Source: a virus. From it: a DNA stretch of 52,196 nt. The DNA lies in the IMG/VR virus record IMGVR_UViG_3300047552_000351, positions 1 through 52,196 of that record; one strand, given 5' to 3'. The notes beneath the pieces are model-generated. The model did not search any database, was not told the origin of the DNA, and saw nothing but the letters and a program-made list of their open reading frames with translations. A program made the translations under genes and the position numbers. Positions 3,711 to 52,196 of the stretch are shown here, piece by piece (within the stretch, counting starts at the first letter, position 1; each line of letters starts with the position of its first letter).

Positions 3711-4079
3711 TCACCATCCAGATTGTAAGTTGATAAGCTGCGGGTTTTCTGATTCGTTGATCTCGTCTTTTAGCTCAAAACTCCTACCATAAATAGCCTG
3801 TTGGTGCGCGAGCATGGAAGCTGCAAGACCGCTAATCGATGATTGGCTATGTGAGACGCTTACGTTATCTGCAGTGCGCCATGTAATTGTTTCTGGTGAG
3901 ATTCCAGCGGCAATCGCAGACACTACTGCGGTTATGTTAGCAACGCTAACGTCGTCTGTGTCGTACGTATGCCCGTCGTATTCTACCCCGCTTTTAAGCT
4001 TGTCTCTGCGTATGTCATTAACGAGAGAGCATAGCAACGGTCGAAGCTTATCAATTGGTACTGACGCCCTATACTGCAT
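3711..4079 (-). CDS. DUF4376-like tail-associated protein (122 aa)
   Basis: The C-terminal part carries ITWRTADNVSVSHS followed by SGLAASMLAHQQAIYG and a charged helix ending in LKDEI. This is the pattern of DUF4376 domains found at the ends of phage tail-tip or tail-fibre-assembly proteins. The N-terminal region is helical. It starts inside the end of the preceding gene (11-nt overlap). Together with the upstream protein it may be the two halves of what is one tail accessory polypeptide in other phages. A role in tail-fibre assembly is inferred from position. Confidence 0.6.
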   Translation of the reverse strand: MQYRASVPIDKLRPLLCSLVNDIRRDKLKSGVEYDGHTYDTDDVSVANITAVVSAIAAGISPETITWRTADNVSVSHSQSSISGLAASMLAHQQAIYGRSFELKDEINESENPQLINLQSGW

Positions 4080-4470
4080 GTATTACGGCCTCATAGTCAA
4101 CGAATGGAAAACTAATTACTTTTACGTAGTAAGTACCAGGAACAGATGCGAAAAACTCTAGTTGTCCGTCGAATACTGCGACAGTTTCTTCTCCGATGGT
4201 TTCATTATACACAGTAACTATGCTAGGGACTGGCATGTCTGAAAACGTAGCAGCATCAGAGCCAGATGATAATATAGTCGTTTTGTCTAGCGTAGTTTCT
4301 TGTAGTGGGCGTTCTTTTGGTTCGTCGTTATCGAAGTACCACGACCTACTGTTATACTCAGTATCGCATATTCCCATTTGCGGCCTTGTATTTAGCGAAA
4401 CGAAATCATCGTCCGAATTTGCGATGTACTTTAGTATCTCCCCGCTTGCTTTATCGTAAACAGTTTTCAT
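4069..4470 (-). CDS. Tail-tip accessory protein (133 aa)
   Basis: Opens with KTVYDKASGEILKYI, a start seen in short proteins next to phage tail-fibre genes, and closes with a beta-sandwich-like stretch PGTYYVKVISFPFVDYEAVI. No catalytic motif is seen. It overlaps the upstream receptor-binding-like gene by 4 nt and the downstream DUF4376-like gene by 11 nt, so the three are probably translated together. Its role is inferred from neighbours. Confidence 0.5.
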   Translation of the reverse strand: MKTVYDKASGEILKYIANSDDDFVSLNTRPQMGICDTEYNSRSWYFDNDEPKERPLQETTLDKTTILSSGSDAATFSDMPVPSIVTVYNETIGEETVAVFDGQLEFFASVPGTYYVKVISFPFVDYEAVIHAV

Positions 4471-5894
4471 CGCTTCAATTCGAACACTGCGATAGAGTAA
4501 TCAACTGATTTTGTTGTTTGTGGATATGAGTAATGTCCGCAGTATAACTGATACGTGACTGCTCCACCACCTGGAGACGGGTCATAAAACGCAGTCGTCA
4601 TTCCCGGCTTGATGCTGAAGCCAGATGGAGGCGTGTAAGTATTATTTGATTGCGCCTGGCCAACTCCACCTTTCGCTAAAGTTATACCAAACCACTGAGG
4701 AAGCAATACACCGCTCCCAGAATCTACCCAATACGAAAAAAAATCATTAAATGCCACTGTGCCAATAACAAAGATAGGGCCTCTGTATGAACTTGCTGGA
4801 ACTGTTATTGTTCCTATTTGCGTCTGTGTTCCACTAGTGTTCGCAACGTTAACGGTTGCCTTCACAGCGTTTGAGTAAGTAACAGAGTTTGCAATGATTG
4901 GCCCTGTCGAAATCGTGTCATTTCCAAACCGTAGAGCTGATATTGTTCCGGCCTGAAGGTTTGAAGCGTCTAGGTTCCCCCTAACAGTGACGTTTCGAAA
5001 CTCCGCTGACCCGGCGCCATCAATTGACCACCCAGACGACCCTGCTACGTAGTTTGAAGACTTAATAATCGACCCACTACCACCCAATATGATTGTTTCG
5101 CCGGTAATTGTGCCGCTCTTAAGCTTTTCGACCACAAGCGTTGCGTCTTCAACCTGCGATCCGTCGATGGCAGAATCAACACCAGAGTATTCGCTCGGAT
5201 CTGTGCCAGATCCGATCTGAGCTTCCAGCATGTTCGAGTCGACAAGAACATCAGCGCCAGACGCGGCAAGCTTTATGCCTAGTGTTCCGGTTGCGCTTGA
5301 GTCTCCGCGCAGATCAAACACGCCAGATACGCGCGTAAATTGCCCGGCTACGCCACTTGTTGCGACAGGAACTAGGTATGTATTGGTTGCAGTGTAGAGT
5401 TGCAGATAGCACGTTCTGACGACTGACGTTGGAGTCGCCAGGTAGGCTGACACTATCCACCTACTGTTTGGAGTCAGCTTGACGTTCTTGTCTGTTGTCT
5501 TGCTTGCCGAGTACCACACTTCGGCGTTAGATGTTGCTGCGATGATGCGAAGGCAGGATGCACCATGGAAACCGCTTGGATATTGCGCCACGGTCGCAGA
5601 GACCGTAGACAGTGGCGGCAACCCATCTTCTTCGAAGGATTGATATCGCGCTGGAGCGATGTTGACACCTGACCCAGACAAGCCGGGAGGGCCAACATCA
5701 TCTGGATAAGACGTGGTAGGCTGCAGACTCGGATGCCACGTAGATGTCTGACCATAGGTATCGAGTTCGCGCCACCAATTGACGCGATTCGTAACCGTGT
5801 CAGTCGGCTGTGCTGTAATTGCCGTATATCCGGCGCCTGGATTGCTTGCAAACTCGCACAGGAATCCTGTCGAATTTTGTCGGTACAATGCCAT
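4467..5894 (-). CDS. Tail-tip receptor-binding-like protein (475 aa)
   Basis: A beta-rich, Ser/Thr/Gly-rich protein. Residues of about 90-230 look like a carbohydrate-binding jelly roll (SWYxSAS-type strands and a DSNMLEAQIGSGTDPSEYS stretch typical of phage CBM-like domains). Residues of about 265-320 carry GWSIDGAGSAEFRNVTVRG, a signature of the distal region of gpJ-type tail-tip proteins. The C-terminal 150 residues form another beta domain that may contact the host. It lies at the distal end of the tail module, where host-specificity proteins normally sit. Receptor binding is inference. Confidence 0.65.
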   Translation of the reverse strand: MALYRQNSTGFLCEFASNPGAGYTAITAQPTDTVTNRVNWWRELDTYGQTSTWHPSLQPTTSYPDDVGPPGLSGSGVNIAPARYQSFEEDGLPPLSTVSATVAQYPSGFHGASCLRIIAATSNAEVWYSASKTTDKNVKLTPNSRWIVSAYLATPTSVVRTCYLQLYTATNTYLVPVATSGVAGQFTRVSGVFDLRGDSSATGTLGIKLAASGADVLVDSNMLEAQIGSGTDPSEYSGVDSAIDGSQVEDATLVVEKLKSGTITGETIILGGSGSIIKSSNYVAGSSGWSIDGAGSAEFRNVTVRGNLDASNLQAGTISALRFGNDTISTGPIIANSVTYSNAVKATVNVANTSGTQTQIGTITVPASSYRGPIFVIGTVAFNDFFSYWVDSGSGVLLPQWFGITLAKGGVGQAQSNNTYTPPSGFSIKPGMTTAFYDPSPGGGAVTYQLYCGHYSYPQTTKSVDYSIAVFELKR

Positions 5895-39797: not shown

Positions 39798-40015
39798 TAG
39801 TCATGTCCGTCATCTGCAACTTCAAATCCATTTACAATGCTTGCAGCTTTAGAAAGACCGGTTGCAATCCCTGGAGGCGAGCACGGACCTATGAACGTTG
39901 ACATCTTGTCATAGATGGATTGACTTGCGGCGACTAACGCCGCATTCCACGCGCGCCTCTCTGCGTCCTCGTCTACTAACTTAAACTCGTTTTTATAATC
40001 TTGAAACGTCACCAT
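39797..40015 (-). CDS. Small phage protein (72 aa)
   Basis: Joined to both neighbours by 1-nt stop/start overlaps. A helical protein: VTFQDYKNEFKLVDEDAERRAWNAAL, then GPCSPPGIATGLSKAASIV. No enzyme or membrane motif. It sits between the Ntn hydrolase and the endolysin, so it is co-expressed with both. Function unknown. Confidence 0.5.
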   Translation of the reverse strand: MVTFQDYKNEFKLVDEDAERRAWNAALVAASQSIYDKMSTFIGPCSPPGIATGLSKAASIVNGFEVADDGHD

Positions 40016-40581
40016 TAGACCTCCAGCTTTCGCGCGATGAACTGCGCTGATTGTTGTTTATAGGTTTTGTGTGCTACACCACGACCGCACAGCTTAAGCG
40101 CCCGCTCTAGTGCGACCTGCATCCATGTGAACTCTTCCGGCTCGTCTTCCACTTCGTCCAGTAGCTCTATTCGGAACGCGTCTACGCCTAAACCTGTGTT
40201 AACGTCGAACTTACTAGCCACCATAACCGCATCGACTGCTGTGCCTCCGAGGTGCATGGTCGCAATGGCGAAGTCACGTCCGCATCCAATCGCGTGCGGC
40301 TTTGATGGATCGAGTGGCAGCATTTGCATACCACCTTGCAGCAAGTACGGAAGCCCATCAAAGTCGATCAAAATAGCTGAAAACTCTTCAAGGTTTCCAG
40401 GCTCAGCGCCTTCGCCATTGAGCCACGAAACAACGTCGTACGCGTCATTAAACGACCCTGCGAAGGCAAGCATTCGGCCGTCTTGAAGCGTAAATATCTT
40501 GCGGGCTTCTATTGGCATCCCTTGGTCGTTTGCAAGTCGATCCGCTGCGAGTATCTTTCCGTCCCACGCTACGGTGGTCAT
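40015..40581 (-). CDS. HslV/proteasome-like Ntn hydrolase (188 aa)
   Basis: The protein begins Met-Thr-Thr-Val-Ala-Trp. Removing Met exposes a Thr nucleophile, as in HslV and proteasome beta subunits. The catalytic partners appear in order: Asp14 (ILAADRLA) and Lys28 (EARKIFTL). The beta-strand core is also there (GRMLAFAGSFNDAYDVV, FSAILIDFDGLPYLLQGG, HAIGCGRDFAIATMHLGG). Phages of several groups carry such stand-alone T1-type peptidases. Substrates are unknown, and HslU-type ATPases are not encoded here. It could work with the host unfoldase or alone. ATGA overlap with the upstream gene. Confidence 0.75.
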   Translation of the reverse strand: MTTVAWDGKILAADRLANDQGMPIEARKIFTLQDGRMLAFAGSFNDAYDVVSWLNGEGAEPGNLEEFSAILIDFDGLPYLLQGGMQMLPLDPSKPHAIGCGRDFAIATMHLGGTAVDAVMVASKFDVNTGLGVDAFRIELLDEVEDEPEEFTWMQVALERALKLCGRGVAHKTYKQQSAQFIARKLEV

Positions 40582-41257: not shown

Positions 41258-41635
41258 TCAATTAAGCGGCACATGGCCACGGTTGCGCATACAGTTAGTG
41301 TATACCGTGCGATACACGTCACCACTTCGAAACACGCCTGAGACACCACCAAGTGCTGATCCTATTGCTGACCCTGGGACGCTTGCGATGCCGAGCCCTG
41401 CTATTCCGCCAACGATCGCACCGCCTGCGAGTCCGTAAGCGATCTCATCGGCTCCGATGCCTGCGTATGCCGCAGCGATGATTCTGCACTGATCCAGATC
41501 TTTGCGGATCGATCCGGGCTTCGCATCTGTCATGTGGTCTAGTGCTGGCTCGAATCCTGACAGCTGCGCAAGTCCGCTACACCCTGCGCACAGTGTACCA
41601 CACATTGCGATACTTAAAACCCAAAAAGATCGCAT
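41258..41635 (-). CDS. Glycine-zipper lipoprotein-like protein (125 aa)
   Basis: The N-terminus RSFWVLSIAMCGTLCAGCSG is a lipoprotein-type signal whose lipobox (CAGC) is not ideal. Residues of about 60-100 form a glycine zipper (GLAGGAIVGGIAGLG, GSAIGSALGGVSGVF) that can insert in or bind a membrane, as in small outer-membrane glycine-zipper lipoproteins. It overlaps the preceding gene by 22 nt. It could be a moron affecting the envelope or a lysis factor. Confidence 0.6.
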   Translation of the reverse strand: MRSFWVLSIAMCGTLCAGCSGLAQLSGFEPALDHMTDAKPGSIRKDLDQCRIIAAAYAGIGADEIAYGLAGGAIVGGIAGLGIASVPGSAIGSALGGVSGVFRSGDVYRTVYTNCMRNRGHVPLN

Positions 41636-41946
41636 TGGGAGTTGATTGGCTTTAAGTTATTTGCAATTCTAGCCATGTCAACTATACGAATTTGCTCTGA
41701 CCATTCTATTGTTTGGAATCCTAGGGAGTGCATTTGAAGGTCGTTTTTAAGGATAGCAATTGCAATTTGTTTGTAGCTTGGCGCTCTGCCTGACGCAGAT
41801 ACTTTTTTTGGTACTTCGTCCGGTATATCGCTAGAATAGCACCGCTTGCGCCATGTGTTGACGTATTGACTTACCCTCTCGCTTGCGCAGTTCCCAGGAC
41901 TGAATTGCTCTTTCCGCCTCTGCATTTGCCAGTAACCGCTGCTCAT
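41614..41946 (-). CDS. Stand-alone IbrA C-terminal (DUF3440-like) domain protein (110 aa)
   Basis: From about residue 25 it reads VSQYVNTWRKRCYSSDIPDE, then APSYKQIAIAILKNDLQMHSLGF. This matches the C-terminal DUF3440-like domain of IbrA/PAPS-reductase-like proteins, and parallels TSWKRFAITILKNDHTCKYLGL in the IbrA-like protein at 43151-44479. It lacks the PP-loop. The start is 41946 or 41925, giving a long overlap with the preceding gene. No later start codon keeps the whole domain. It may be a split-off or duplicated partner domain. Confidence 0.6.
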   Translation of the reverse strand: MSSGYWQMQRRKEQFSPGNCASERVSQYVNTWRKRCYSSDIPDEVPKKVSASGRAPSYKQIAIAILKNDLQMHSLGFQTIEWSEQIRIVDMARIANNLKPINSQCDLFGF

Positions 41947-42247
41947 CTGTAAGGAATCCCCATGCTTGTCGTGTTATATCTTCTGGACATCTAATTGCCA
42001 ATGCGCAAGCCGCATGACCTACCCACGCTTTCCTGTTCATCTGGTAATCAGTCAATGCGTTGTCGCAACTGTTAGGCCATTCGTAAATTACCCTCATCAT
42101 ATAAGATCCATACAATACATGATCTCCGGTAAATTTAATTGCTTTTTCAAGCATTTGTTTTCTGTTGTCTACATCCCCCCACATGTTGTGCCTAATCTCT
42201 TCCCACTCGTCGATGCTAACCCAAACCCTCTGAAGGTTCCTCATCAA
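41831..42247 (-). CDS. Conserved IbrAB-associated phage protein (138 aa)
   Basis: A helical, Trp-rich protein: VWVSIDEWEEIRHNMWGD, then YMMRVIYEWPNSCDNALTD, NRKAWVGHAACALAIRCPED and TDEQRLLANAEAERAI. I recognise it as a family that accompanies IbrA/IbrB-like pairs in phages, from memory and not from a search. It overlaps the cupin-ParB gene by 32 nt. Role unknown; a partner of the IbrAB pair is likely from synteny. Confidence 0.6.
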   Translation of the reverse strand: MMRNLQRVWVSIDEWEEIRHNMWGDVDNRKQMLEKAIKFTGDHVLYGSYMMRVIYEWPNSCDNALTDYQMNRKAWVGHAACALAIRCPEDITRQAWGFLTDEQRLLANAEAERAIQSWELRKREGKSIRQHMAQAVLF

Positions 42248-43154
42248 GTTGGTCCTCTACGTTGTCCATATTCTCGACATCCCAAGACTTGGAAAAGTCT
42301 TTGCCTAAGAAAAGAGAAGCCAAACCAGTTATCTGTTTCAGTCGTAGTAGTTCATCTGGGCTCATTCCAATGTGTTTGCATATCCATGCGTCGCCTTTCC
42401 CCATTTCGACAAGTTCGGCAACAATCACAGACATCAGTTCGACGTTGTGCGTTCCACGCGCTCTGTTGTGCCTGATTGTTGACGCCATTCTGTCGTGGAC
42501 TTCTTTTTGAAGCACAACAACAGGCAACATTCCGTTTTCACGCTCTACAAGCGCCTTATTGTTCTTAAGGGTAAGGTATCGGTGAAATCCGTCTACAACG
42601 ACATACATATCACGATCTGGATCGTACACAGTGACGACTGGCTGCGTGTACCCATCCTCCATGATGGATGTTTCTAATAGAGCCATTTCTGGAGGAGCGA
42701 CGCGGTTCGGGTTGTAGTCGTTTGCGGTCACCTTTTCAATTGGAACCGGCCTGACGAAGTAAACCGGAGACTTCCACGGTGCTGCGTATGATCCGTCTTC
42801 CTGATGCAATTCCTTCCCAGACAACGGAGGGTTGAATACGCAAATTAGCACAGTTTCAACGTACGCAGTAAATACATGCGCGTCGTGCTGGTCTAACACG
42901 TACGTCGTATCTGGCTCAATTTCGAATGTTTCTCCTGTTGATTCGTTAAGTATTTCGCCGTGCCCGCTAACACAAAAGCAAGACTCCAGATGGTTCTTAT
43001 AGTGCCATCTCCACGAACCAGGATTAACCACTGTTTTAGTAAGAGTGTAACCCATTCCATCAGATTCGAGCAATATCCTATTGCTAACAAACCCCCCTTT
43101 TTGGCATTCTACAACTCGGTCTTTTTGAAGTTCTGAAACTTTTACAACTTTCAT
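42216..43154 (-). CDS. EctC-like cupin fused to ParB/sulfiredoxin (IbrB-like) domain (312 aa)
   Basis: Residues 1-125 match ectoine synthase in order and spacing: DGMGYTLTKTVVNPGS, WHYKNHLESCFCVSGHGE, TYVLDQHDAHVFTAYVETV and ICVFNPPLSGKELHQEDGSY. The EctC metal ligands Glu57, Tyr85 and His93 are all present at those numbers. Residues of about 135-230 are a ParB/Srx domain (ANDYNPNRVAPPEMALLETS, DGYTQPVVTVYDPD, VVDGFHRYLTL, RHNRARGTHN). A short HTH-like end follows (DAWICKHIGMSPDELLRLKQ). The second half matches IbrB-like phage proteins. It is coupled to the IbrA-like gene by ATGA. No ectA or ectB is present, so ectoine synthesis is unlikely. Fusion of ligand-binding cupin and nucleic-acid-associated domain is the notable point. 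Confidence 0.8.
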   Translation of the reverse strand: MKVVKVSELQKDRVVECQKGGFVSNRILLESDGMGYTLTKTVVNPGSWRWHYKNHLESCFCVSGHGEILNESTGETFEIEPDTTYVLDQHDAHVFTAYVETVLICVFNPPLSGKELHQEDGSYAAPWKSPVYFVRPVPIEKVTANDYNPNRVAPPEMALLETSIMEDGYTQPVVTVYDPDRDMYVVVDGFHRYLTLKNNKALVERENGMLPVVVLQKEVHDRMASTIRHNRARGTHNVELMSVIVAELVEMGKGDAWICKHIGMSPDELLRLKQITGLASLFLGKDFSKSWDVENMDNVEDQLDEEPSEGLG

Positions 43155-44479
43155 TTGTGCGGTCTAAGGATAGATGAGTACTTGCGTTGGATAGCGCGTT
43201 GACGCTTTTGCTGCTCTTGAGTCTGAGACAGTCCCAAGTATTTACACGTATGGTCGTTCTTTAGGATTGTGATTGCAAATCGTTTCCAGCTTGTCACCAT
43301 GCTGTTATGGAACGGAAGAGAATCAAGGTGATCTGGCGGGACTTTAATAACAACTCGTCTGAGTTCGTTTCCTCCGTGCGGAGTTACGCCATTAAAGTGA
43401 AACCGTGTTCCTGTTTTGTATAGTTCTGCAATTACATTTTCAGGCAATCCGCGCCCCACCCTACCCCAGAACATTATCGATTGGATGAAGCGCGATTTAA
43501 AATTTACCGCTGACTGCCTTGGAAGAGTTGCAAGTAAGAATTTTACAAAGCTTTTCCATGTATGTCCTTTTGGTAGCGTAAACGACGAGTAGTTGAGCTG
43601 CTTTCCGTAAGTTGCGATAAAGTTAGCGCCTCCGACTCTAGCGCACAGCCTTGCCCAGATTGGCGCATCTATCACCCGGTACATACCGAGGCTTGACTTT
43701 GATTCAGACATAAAAGGACTGGCAACTCGCATTTTCTTGATTGGGACGCCAGCCATATAGAACACGTCGTACAGTTTGTTATAGTCCCATCCGAACTTAG
43801 CGTTTGCTGTCCATATGTCTTCAGTCTTCCAATCGTATATTGGGTAGCAGTTGTAGGTATGGTCCGTGTTTTTCTTTGTCCACATCGCACCTTTCATCGT
43901 TTCCTTTTGCTGATTCATGATCGCTCTGAAACGGTTCAATGATTCAGCCGTACGGATTCCTATTAGGTTCGCACAGGATACATCTTGACTGTACCATTCC
44001 GCGAACATGTCCCAGAACTCATCGTAGTTCATGCCTGGTATAAACTTTTCACCGAAAGGATGATTAGACATGTTGACGATGTAGTCGTCTTCAGGCATTG
44101 GGCGAATCCACCGATGCTCATCGTCAATTCCCCAGCACTGCCACGCTATTTCATAGCTTGACACAGTGCATGGGAGAGTGATAGGCATGCAGCACCAATA
44201 GATGTCTAGGTACTGCCTGTTGTCTTTTAGTATTCGGTGCATGAACTCATACGAGTGCGTGTAGTTCGCCTCGTTGTCGAGAATCTGCACACCTATTTTT
44301 TTGTTTATGTTGTTAGCTTTTACGTAATCAAGGACAAGGTTAAGAAGAACGCCACTATCTTTTCCGCCAGAAAAAGACACGTAGACGCGCTCGAAGTTTT
44401 CAAAAATGAACTTTAGTCGTTCTTGGGAAGCGTCATAAACGGACGTTTCGTTGAACGACCGATAAGCTGAATTGCTCAC
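43151..44479 (-). CDS. IbrA-like PAPS reductase-family protein (442 aa)
   Basis: A PP-loop (N-type ATP pyrophosphatase) protein with SGGKDS at residues 37-42 in RVYVSFSGGKDSGVLLNL, followed by VQILDNEANYTHSYEFMHRIL. The C-terminal DUF3440-like domain holds VTSWKRFAITILKNDHTCKYLGL. The layout is that of IbrA and related DndC-like sulfotransferase relatives, which adenylate a substrate before sulfur or other transfer. E. coli IbrA/IbrB are prophage-borne activators of immunoglobulin-binding proteins, but their chemistry is unresolved. GTG start with GAGAGG upstream. A perfect palindrome precedes the gene. Confidence 0.82.
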   Translation of the reverse strand: MSNSAYRSFNETSVYDASQERLKFIFENFERVYVSFSGGKDSGVLLNLVLDYVKANNINKKIGVQILDNEANYTHSYEFMHRILKDNRQYLDIYWCCMPITLPCTVSSYEIAWQCWGIDDEHRWIRPMPEDDYIVNMSNHPFGEKFIPGMNYDEFWDMFAEWYSQDVSCANLIGIRTAESLNRFRAIMNQQKETMKGAMWTKKNTDHTYNCYPIYDWKTEDIWTANAKFGWDYNKLYDVFYMAGVPIKKMRVASPFMSESKSSLGMYRVIDAPIWARLCARVGGANFIATYGKQLNYSSFTLPKGHTWKSFVKFLLATLPRQSAVNFKSRFIQSIMFWGRVGRGLPENVIAELYKTGTRFHFNGVTPHGGNELRRVVIKVPPDHLDSLPFHNSMVTSWKRFAITILKNDHTCKYLGLSQTQEQQKRQRAIQRKYSSILRPHK

Positions 44480-51730: not shown

Positions 51731-51924
51731 TAGCCATGCATTACAACATCTGTTCCGGCCCAGGCGAATTCCACGTTGTAACGCGAGAGCCAGCACGTAA
51801 CACACGCGACATCTTAGAAATCGAGAACCACAGACGGTCTCGCAGGATCGACGCGCTCGAACTGTTGGCCTGCGGGTTGCGTGTGCGATATGATTCAACA
51901 CTTAGCGCATTTGAGGAAGTTTAA
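51727..51924 (+). CDS. Small hypothetical protein (65 aa)
   Basis: The GTG at 51727 overlaps the lipoprotein stop as GTGA. An ATG at 51736 is the other choice. The Arg/Glu-rich product ([20 protein letters not shown], then [17 protein letters not shown]) is soluble. It ends in a TAATG overlap with the pentapeptide gene. No family recognised. Confidence 0.5.
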
Positions 51925-52196
51925 TGGACATTAAAAATGTTTTGCGATTGCATAAGTTATGGCTTAATGGCGATAGTTTTGGTAATCGTGCCGACTTGCG
52001 CGATGCCAACTTGAGCGGTGCCGACTTGCGCGATGCCAACTTGAGCGGTGCCGACTTGCGCGATGCCGACTTGCGCGACGCCAACTTGAGCGGTGCCAAC
52101 TTGAGCGGTGCCAACTTGAGCGGTGCCAACTTGAGCGGTGCCAACTTGAGAGGTGCCGACTTGCGCGATGCCAACTTGAGCGGTGCCGACTTGCGC
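51924..52196 (+). CDS. Pentapeptide-repeat protein, 3' end missing (91 aa seen)
   Basis: The ATG overlaps the preceding stop (TAATG). After [20 protein letters not shown] come 14 units of A(D/N)L(R/S)(D/G), the last one cut by the window edge. Such repeats fold as a right-handed quadrilateral beta-helix, which in MfpA and Qnr proteins mimics DNA and binds gyrase. Phage copies with this opening are common but their target is unknown. Protein length cannot be judged, because the gene runs off the window. Confidence 0.85.
51990..52196 (+). repeat. 15-nt tandem repeat encoding pentapeptides
   Basis: Thirteen complete 15-nt units and a partial one alternate between two nearly invariant forms, GCCGACTTGCGCGAT and GCCAACTTGAGCGGT, with one hybrid unit. 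The codons hardly vary, which implies recent expansion or gene conversion and is enough to stop a short-read assembly here. Confidence 0.9.

Follow-up and report, generated by a model that had tools for sequence, protein, structure and literature searches.

What does an ectoine-synthase-like cupin do when it is fused to an IbrB-type ParB/Srx domain and encoded directly behind IbrA in a phage? IbrA/IbrB pairs are common in phages and plasmids and, beyond one E. coli transcription phenotype, our search found no function for them. The DNA analysed here (the window: positions 1 to 52,196 of IMG/VR virus record IMGVR_UViG_3300047552_000351) is a temperate phage carrying an integrase, a repressor, a terminase and a portal. 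The fusion is one intact ORF of 312 aa on the minus strand (42216-43154), and its start overlaps the end of IbrA, ATG with stop, by four bases. No tRNA genes were found in the window, and no Rfam RNA elements near the locus, which has the following features:

43151..44479, minus strand: IbrA homologue of 442 aa, combining a PP-loop (SGGKDS) ATP-pyrophosphatase of PAPS-reductase type with DUF3440
42780..43154, minus strand: residues 1-125 of the fusion, the ectoine-synthase-like cupin (Pfam Ectoine_synth, 1.8e-39; Foldseek 5bxx_B, target-normalised TM 0.95)
42216..42767, minus strand: residues ~130-312 of the fusion, an IbrB-type ParB/Srx domain followed by a helical, HTH-like C-terminal part (phrog_2159, 7e-78)
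41831..42244, minus strand: P138, all-helical with no known fold (ORF to 42247; probable ATG at 42244; from AlphaFold2 and cassette linkage)
41614..41946, minus strand: copy of IbrA's C-terminal DUF3440 tail as a separate gene (matching Pfam DUF3440 at profile positions 124-175, E 4e-5)

The cupin is an EctC relative without the substrate-positioning tryptophan

The first-pass annotation had read residues 1-125 as ectoine-synthase-like (EctC-like), and both sequence and structure comparisons agreed: the residues matched Pfam Ectoine_synth over profile positions 1-125 of 127, the fusion scored 137.2 bits against the NCBIfam ectoine synthase model PRK13290 (cut-off 128), and in the PDB these residues matched EctC (5bxx, E 8e-25). 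The AlphaFold2 model of this half (pLDDT mostly 87-98) kept the EctC fold, with an rmsd of 1.1 to S. alaskensis EctC (5bxx_B).

In P. lautus EctC the iron ligands are Glu57, Tyr84 and His92, and the substrate residues are Trp21, Arg25, Asn38, Thr40, Tyr52 and Glu57 (PMC6344544). We compared these positions across 94 distinct phage cupins (76 fused and 18 split; one split copy was truncated, leaving 93 complete). The iron ligands, which the window protein keeps as Glu57, Tyr85 and His93 just as the first reading had it, were invariant (94/94), as were Glu114 and His116 (94/94), while Ser23, Arg25, Thr40 and Tyr52 were invariant across intact copies. The C-terminal lid residues were kept too, and so was Phe106 in all fused copies. 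Metal-site and lid residues stayed invariant even though the phage cupins drop to 46% identity with the window cupin, and the cupin is under strong purifying selection (pN 0.12-0.22, with synonymous differences near saturation).

Such invariance bears on whether the cupin serves the complex without catalysis, as a structural or dimerisation module. EctC forms dimers, as do other cupins, and repeated fusion and fission with IbrB (see below) would be compatible with a scaffold; on the other hand, an unchanging metal site and lid at 46% identity are unexpected for one. Judged from conservation, the invariant metal-site residues favour catalysis, or chemistry on a bound ligand, rather than a structural function, and a mere scaffold seems quite unlikely.

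The departure from EctC lies in the roof of the substrate site, which is changed while the iron site and lid are complete. Conservation of Trp21 extends over 437 cluster-encoded and 145 orphan EctCs, and the W21A variant has 9.7% activity left (PMC6344544). This position was Phe in 93/93 complete distinct phage cupins (Phe22 in the window protein), and Trp was found at either known position in none of the 94 distinct copies (one truncated); by comparison, Trp was kept in 33/34 high-scoring genomic EctCs and in 14/15 low-scoring (orphan-type) matches. Position 38 was mostly Thr in the phage cupins, against His/Asn in EctC and Cys in orphans. The first-pass reading stood for the domain assignment, the metal site and the IbrAB context, but its motif-by-motif likeness to true EctC broke down at Trp21. 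Its remark that other ectoine genes are lacking was borne out: EctA (TIGR02406) was absent from the window record and from the 23 other cassette phage records (24/24). As Trp has become Phe in the phage copies and EctA is absent, we take the phage cupin for a relative of EctC adapted to a different ligand rather than for an ectoine gene.

That conclusion leaves little room for a retained or captured ectoine synthase, i.e., an auxiliary metabolic gene whose product would make ectoine from host N-gamma-acetyl-diaminobutyrate during infection. The profile score above the NCBIfam cut-off and the retention of most active-site residues speak for it, but the loss of the substrate-positioning Trp, the absence of EctA and the locking of the cupin into an IbrAB cassette, without known osmoprotection role, make it highly unlikely. 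An ordinary ectoine or osmolyte auxiliary gene was therefore rejected as the main reading.

The phage cupins thus share with EctC (PF06339; 5bxx, 5onm) the fold, the iron ligands, Arg25, Ser23, Thr40 and Tyr52, but are linked to IbrAB rather than ectAB, most copies being fused to ParB. They branch closer to orphan EctCs than to bona fide EctC. The orphans (PMC5924519, PMC6344544) are likewise EctC-like, lie outside ectABC and are unsettled in function; they differ in having Trp (at a shifted position), Cys38 and Ser104 where the phage cupins have Phe, mostly Thr and mostly Cys, and only the latter sit with IbrA, IbrB and P138. With this diagnostic Trp-to-Phe change and fixed partners, the phage cupins bear on the role of EctC-like proteins outside ectoine operons.

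The partners are an IbrB-type ParB/Srx domain and a PP-loop enzyme

Residues ~130-305 of the fusion matched the ParB-like family phrog_2159. In the alignment, the VVDGFHRY and RHNRARGTH stretches named in the first reading's IbrB-like domain were present and strongly conserved, the IbrB motifs overall being strikingly so (NDYNPN.VAPPEM, DGYTQP, DGFHR and RHNRARG.H), and the HTH-like tail was conserved as well. Profile matches in the PDB were ParB (4umk, 7e-5) and Noc (7ol9, 4e-4), with weak ones to SbnI (0.02) and SerK (0.5); the AlphaFold2 model of the ParB half, unlike that of the cupin half, was of low to moderate confidence. Two familiar roles were rejected. A chromosome-partition ParB (CTPase) would carry GERR, which in ParB and Noc aligns with DGFHR in IbrB, and the neighbour is IbrA, not ParA. 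In sulfiredoxin the catalytic Cys sits in a GCHR motif, and this position was Phe or Tyr in all aligned IbrBs (DGFHR/DGYHR).

The adjoining protein matched PAPS_reduct (1e-9), DUF3440 (2e-52) and phrog_2302 (9e-110), and at least 95% of its 46 non-redundant homologues kept the PP-loop residues. The locus is thus of the IbrAB type, as proposed earlier: a ParB/Srx-type IbrB beside a PP-loop DUF3440 IbrA. With its PP-loop intact, IbrA very probably activates a substrate by adenylation. Across the 46 IbrAs no Cys column exceeded 78%, i.e., no family-wide conserved cysteine was present, and a reductase or DndC-like sulfur step is therefore unsupported: PAPS reductase was rejected, the domain match being present and the conserved reductase cysteine not, and so was DndC-type sulfur transfer, for which the DndC match was also weak and partial. 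In the IbrAs of the cupin clade, however, C92, C99 and C274 (L001 numbering) were fixed (17/17), whereas C99 and C274 occurred in only 4/29 and 2/29 outside it; these cysteines are a possible clade-specific metal or thiol site. A PDB sequence search gave no useful relatives of IbrA beyond generic PP-loop proteins.

DNA-modification systems offer an analogy. DpdB acts with DpdA, and DndB belongs to a phosphorothioation operon that encodes DndC (PMC12839542, PMC11662687). In both (7-deazaguanine in DNA and DNA phosphorothioation, respectively), a ParB-superfamily protein lies beside a nucleic-acid-modifying enzyme, much as IbrB lies beside IbrA, and DndC, like IbrA, is PAPS-reductase-like. Given the weak IbrA-DndC similarity and the lack of family-wide cysteines this remains an analogy only, and no desulfurase, DndD/E or TGT was recognised in the cassette.

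It is also where a defence role comes in, with the cassette acting in defence, superinfection exclusion or anti-defence and the cupin as sensor or effector. An accessory position in temperate and other phages would suit such a role, and Dnd, Dpd and BREX defence loci commonly encode ParB-fold and PP-loop proteins (PMC12839542, PMC11662687). However, PADLOC had no match for the fusion, and no nuclease or toxin was recognised in the cassette. We therefore consider a defence role improbable; a known defence system was rejected, since PADLOC on the four cassette proteins gave only weak DndC/BrxP domain matches, those of IbrA.

P138 completes a conserved phage cassette

Judged from gene neighbourhoods, the fusion is part of a conserved cassette, newly recognised here, of IbrA, cupin(-)IbrB, P138 and the IbrA tail. 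It occurs in many environmental phages, with the cupin fused or split and in several gene orders. Each pattern scan kept the best 80 loci, so that counts are lower bounds biased to near relatives, and many loci are overlapping windows of the same contigs. One scan of viral metagenomes gave at least 148 related loci and a cupin-only scan at least 209. Among ~300 loci, IbrB, IbrA and P138 occurred together in 293, 246 of which had the cupin too (overlapping windows included); removal of identical IbrB sequences left 122 loci, with the cupin in 78. A chance or assembly fusion was rejected, the 76 distinct fused copies being spread across many contigs.

The first-pass annotation recognised IbrAB but missed the third protein, P138, and with it the four-gene cassette. 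When genes around the loci of the first scan were clustered, this protein of ~140 aa was present in 82/83, and it accompanies IbrA/IbrB in essentially every phage locus whose contig extends far enough; P138 loci without IbrA or IbrB were short contigs or had partial or broken ORFs. Its AlphaFold2 model is all-helical (pLDDT 95.1) and found no fold match in the PDB (best E 2.3), nor did the PDB hold useful sequence relatives. P138 had no match in plasmids and occurred in 0/399 genomes of one bacterial phylum (positive control 3/3). On this pattern of co-occurrence P138 is an obligate partner in the cassette. Moreover, it lies beside cupin-less IbrAB, for example in Microcystis phage Mwe-JY13 and Pseudomonas phage Amjad_SA; it is therefore the cupin that is an addition to an IbrA-IbrB-P138 core, and many phage IbrAB systems probably have in P138 a component missed until now. 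A confidently predicted fold without PDB match and strict IbrAB linkage make it a new and directly testable component.

The tail gene (motif PDE.P...PSYK.IA.AILKND) falls just short of the curated cut-off for DUF3440. It comes after P138 in cupin cassettes, those of the phages Gaia and Nebkiss included, and accompanies P138 also in a sister group (L265, L276, L279, L303 and L311).

The cupin travels with IbrA

The cupin lay directly behind IbrA (within 100 bp, mostly with a four-base ATGA overlap) in 247/249 scored loci (overlapping windows included). Some cassettes are cyclically permuted, with the ParB gene elsewhere, and there too the cupin stays behind IbrA. Fused and split forms of cupin and IbrB have interchanged at least three times. 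Distances of cupin, IbrA, IbrB and P138 were correlated pairwise (r 0.71-0.94, all p 0.001; 0.93 for cupin and IbrA), as expected of co-inherited parts. In the IbrA tree (supports from FastTree) the cupin cassettes fell within one clade, 25/26 members of which have the cupin (support 0.90). In the ParB tree, for which an arbitrary non-cupin sequence served as root, the cupin loci were not set apart from eight non-cupin loci, so a single origin of cupin cassettes rests on the IbrA tree.

Two loci depart from the common arrangement. The exception in the IbrA cupin clade, L162 (IMGVR_UViG_3300049489_000692), has a Prx6-type peroxiredoxin gene (3739-4488) between IbrA and IbrB, in the cupin slot. 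In L172 (IMGVR_UViG_3300037247_000402), a 499-aa protein carries a MycE-like macrolide O-methyltransferase domain (3905-4477) between cupin and ParB; this domain is of the MycE small-molecule O-methyltransferase type (PDB 3ssm, E 6e-30), and a gap of 853 bp separates IbrA from the gene of the cupin-methyltransferase-ParB protein.

These arrangements bear on the main rival to a chemical role, namely that the cupin senses a metabolite (a small amide, an amino acid or a metal-ligand pair) and switches the ParB/HTH part of IbrB, which with IbrA would activate phage or prophage transcription. One-component regulators are typically built in this way, with a DNA-linked domain fused on, and the HTH-like tail of IbrB is conserved. 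Furthermore, phage annotations present IbrAB as co-activating prophage genes, and IbrAB of E. coli ECOR-9 is reported to activate expression of the prophage eib gene (Sandt 2002, cited in PMC7649339). Several observations sit poorly with sensing: i) the 18 distinct free-standing cupins can be separated from ParB by other genes, yet lie beside IbrA; ii) the catalytic metal ligands and lid residues are all kept; iii) in one copy a methyltransferase domain separates the cupin from ParB. That the cupin is linked to IbrA and not to ParB, that its metal site is invariant and that a methyltransferase was inserted in one copy all favour chemistry over sensing, though not strongly, and we hold the sensor role to be somewhat doubtful.

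Relatives in isolates and in E. coli

The fusion itself, presented as novel by the first-pass annotation, is real and common in viral metagenomes, but GenBank already uses the name "ectoine synthase/ParB multidomain protein" for gp104 of Mycobacterium phage Gaia and for its counterpart in Pseudoalteromonas phage XCL1123, and Nebkiss carries the same fusion under another name. A literature search on the fusion, YbdNM and IbrAB found context and no paper that gives the fusion a function, nor did it find any published IbrAB phenotype besides eib activation in E. coli.

In the isolate collection the cupin occurred only in Gaia, XCL1123 and Nebkiss. A fifth record, MT835761, was rejected as a further cupin phage; this record (L372, MT835761.1), filed as "Bacteriophage sp." and derived from human faeces, reads as a piece of actinobacterial ectBC, with ectB beside a normal Trp-bearing ectC, and is probably not phage DNA. 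Gaia and XCL1123 have the same protein family and the same cassette as the window, including P138 and the tail gene; unlike in the window, cupin and ParB are two genes in XCL1123, and Gaia and Nebkiss have an extra gene between cupin-IbrB and P138 (L083, 6890-7264; L373, 3890-4264). It is annotated as a GIY-YIG endonuclease in Nebkiss and is possibly a homing insertion.

IbrA/IbrB of E. coli ECOR-9, YbdN/YbdM of K-12 and the pairs of many phages share with the window a PP-loop/DUF3440 protein and a ParB/Srx protein of the same subfamily. The window cassette differs in the added cupin, the obligate P138, the separate tail gene and the clade-specific IbrA cysteines.

A proposed tailoring role for the cupin

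Taken as one subunit of a four-part phage system, the fusion may work as follows. IbrB and P138 would bring IbrA to a nucleic acid (DNA likelier than RNA) or to a nucleotide-bound substrate; IbrA would make or transfer an activated group; the cupin would act on a small amide or amine group handled by IbrA, through metal-dependent chemistry of the EctC type (amine-amide cyclodehydration or the reverse reaction); and the phage would be helped by a resulting chemical mark or by a change in transcription. Our favoured reading, adopted tentatively, thus makes the cupin a metal-dependent tailoring enzyme of EctC type whose step is coupled to the ATP-dependent chemistry of IbrA.

Several lines of evidence are consistent with such a tailoring step: i) the cupin keeps its place behind IbrA, even in permuted cassettes; ii) cupin and IbrA distances are closely correlated, and the cupin belongs to a single IbrA clade with three fixed cysteines; iii) the cupin tolerates few amino-acid changes while its synonymous sites are near saturation; iv) enzymes that modify bases or the backbone are known to have ParB-fold partners (DpdB and DndB; PMC12839542, PMC11662687); v) the methyltransferase domain in one cassette's fusion protein is as expected of a tailoring enzyme. 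Other observations pull the opposite way. Activation of eib by E. coli IbrAB, as far as PMC7649339 recounts it, fits regulation equally. Most IbrAB and many IbrAB-P138 cassettes are without the cupin, so the core function is independent of it. The peroxiredoxin in the cupin slot of L162 is hard to reconcile with a cyclase step that is fixed, the model of the ParB half is weak, and DndC-like sulfur chemistry is unsupported.

We further considered that the PP-loop enzyme puts or activates an amino-acid-like group on a nucleic acid and that the iron cupin closes it into a ring (a cyclic amidine), guided by the ParB/Srx protein and by P138 as a helical adaptor of new fold. This we regard as unlikely; if true, it would add a chemistry to those known for modifying nucleic acids and put the ectoine synthase fold to a new use. 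For the tailoring step in general, a metal enzyme of the cupin clade's own, with a recognisable active site, offers a handle on the chemistry of the whole complex.

Outside the cassette, an HslV-like peptidase family protein (phrog_1040) is encoded close by at 40015-40581 (minus strand), and the end of the window (51902-52195) holds a short degenerate coding repeat of KSAPLKLA units.
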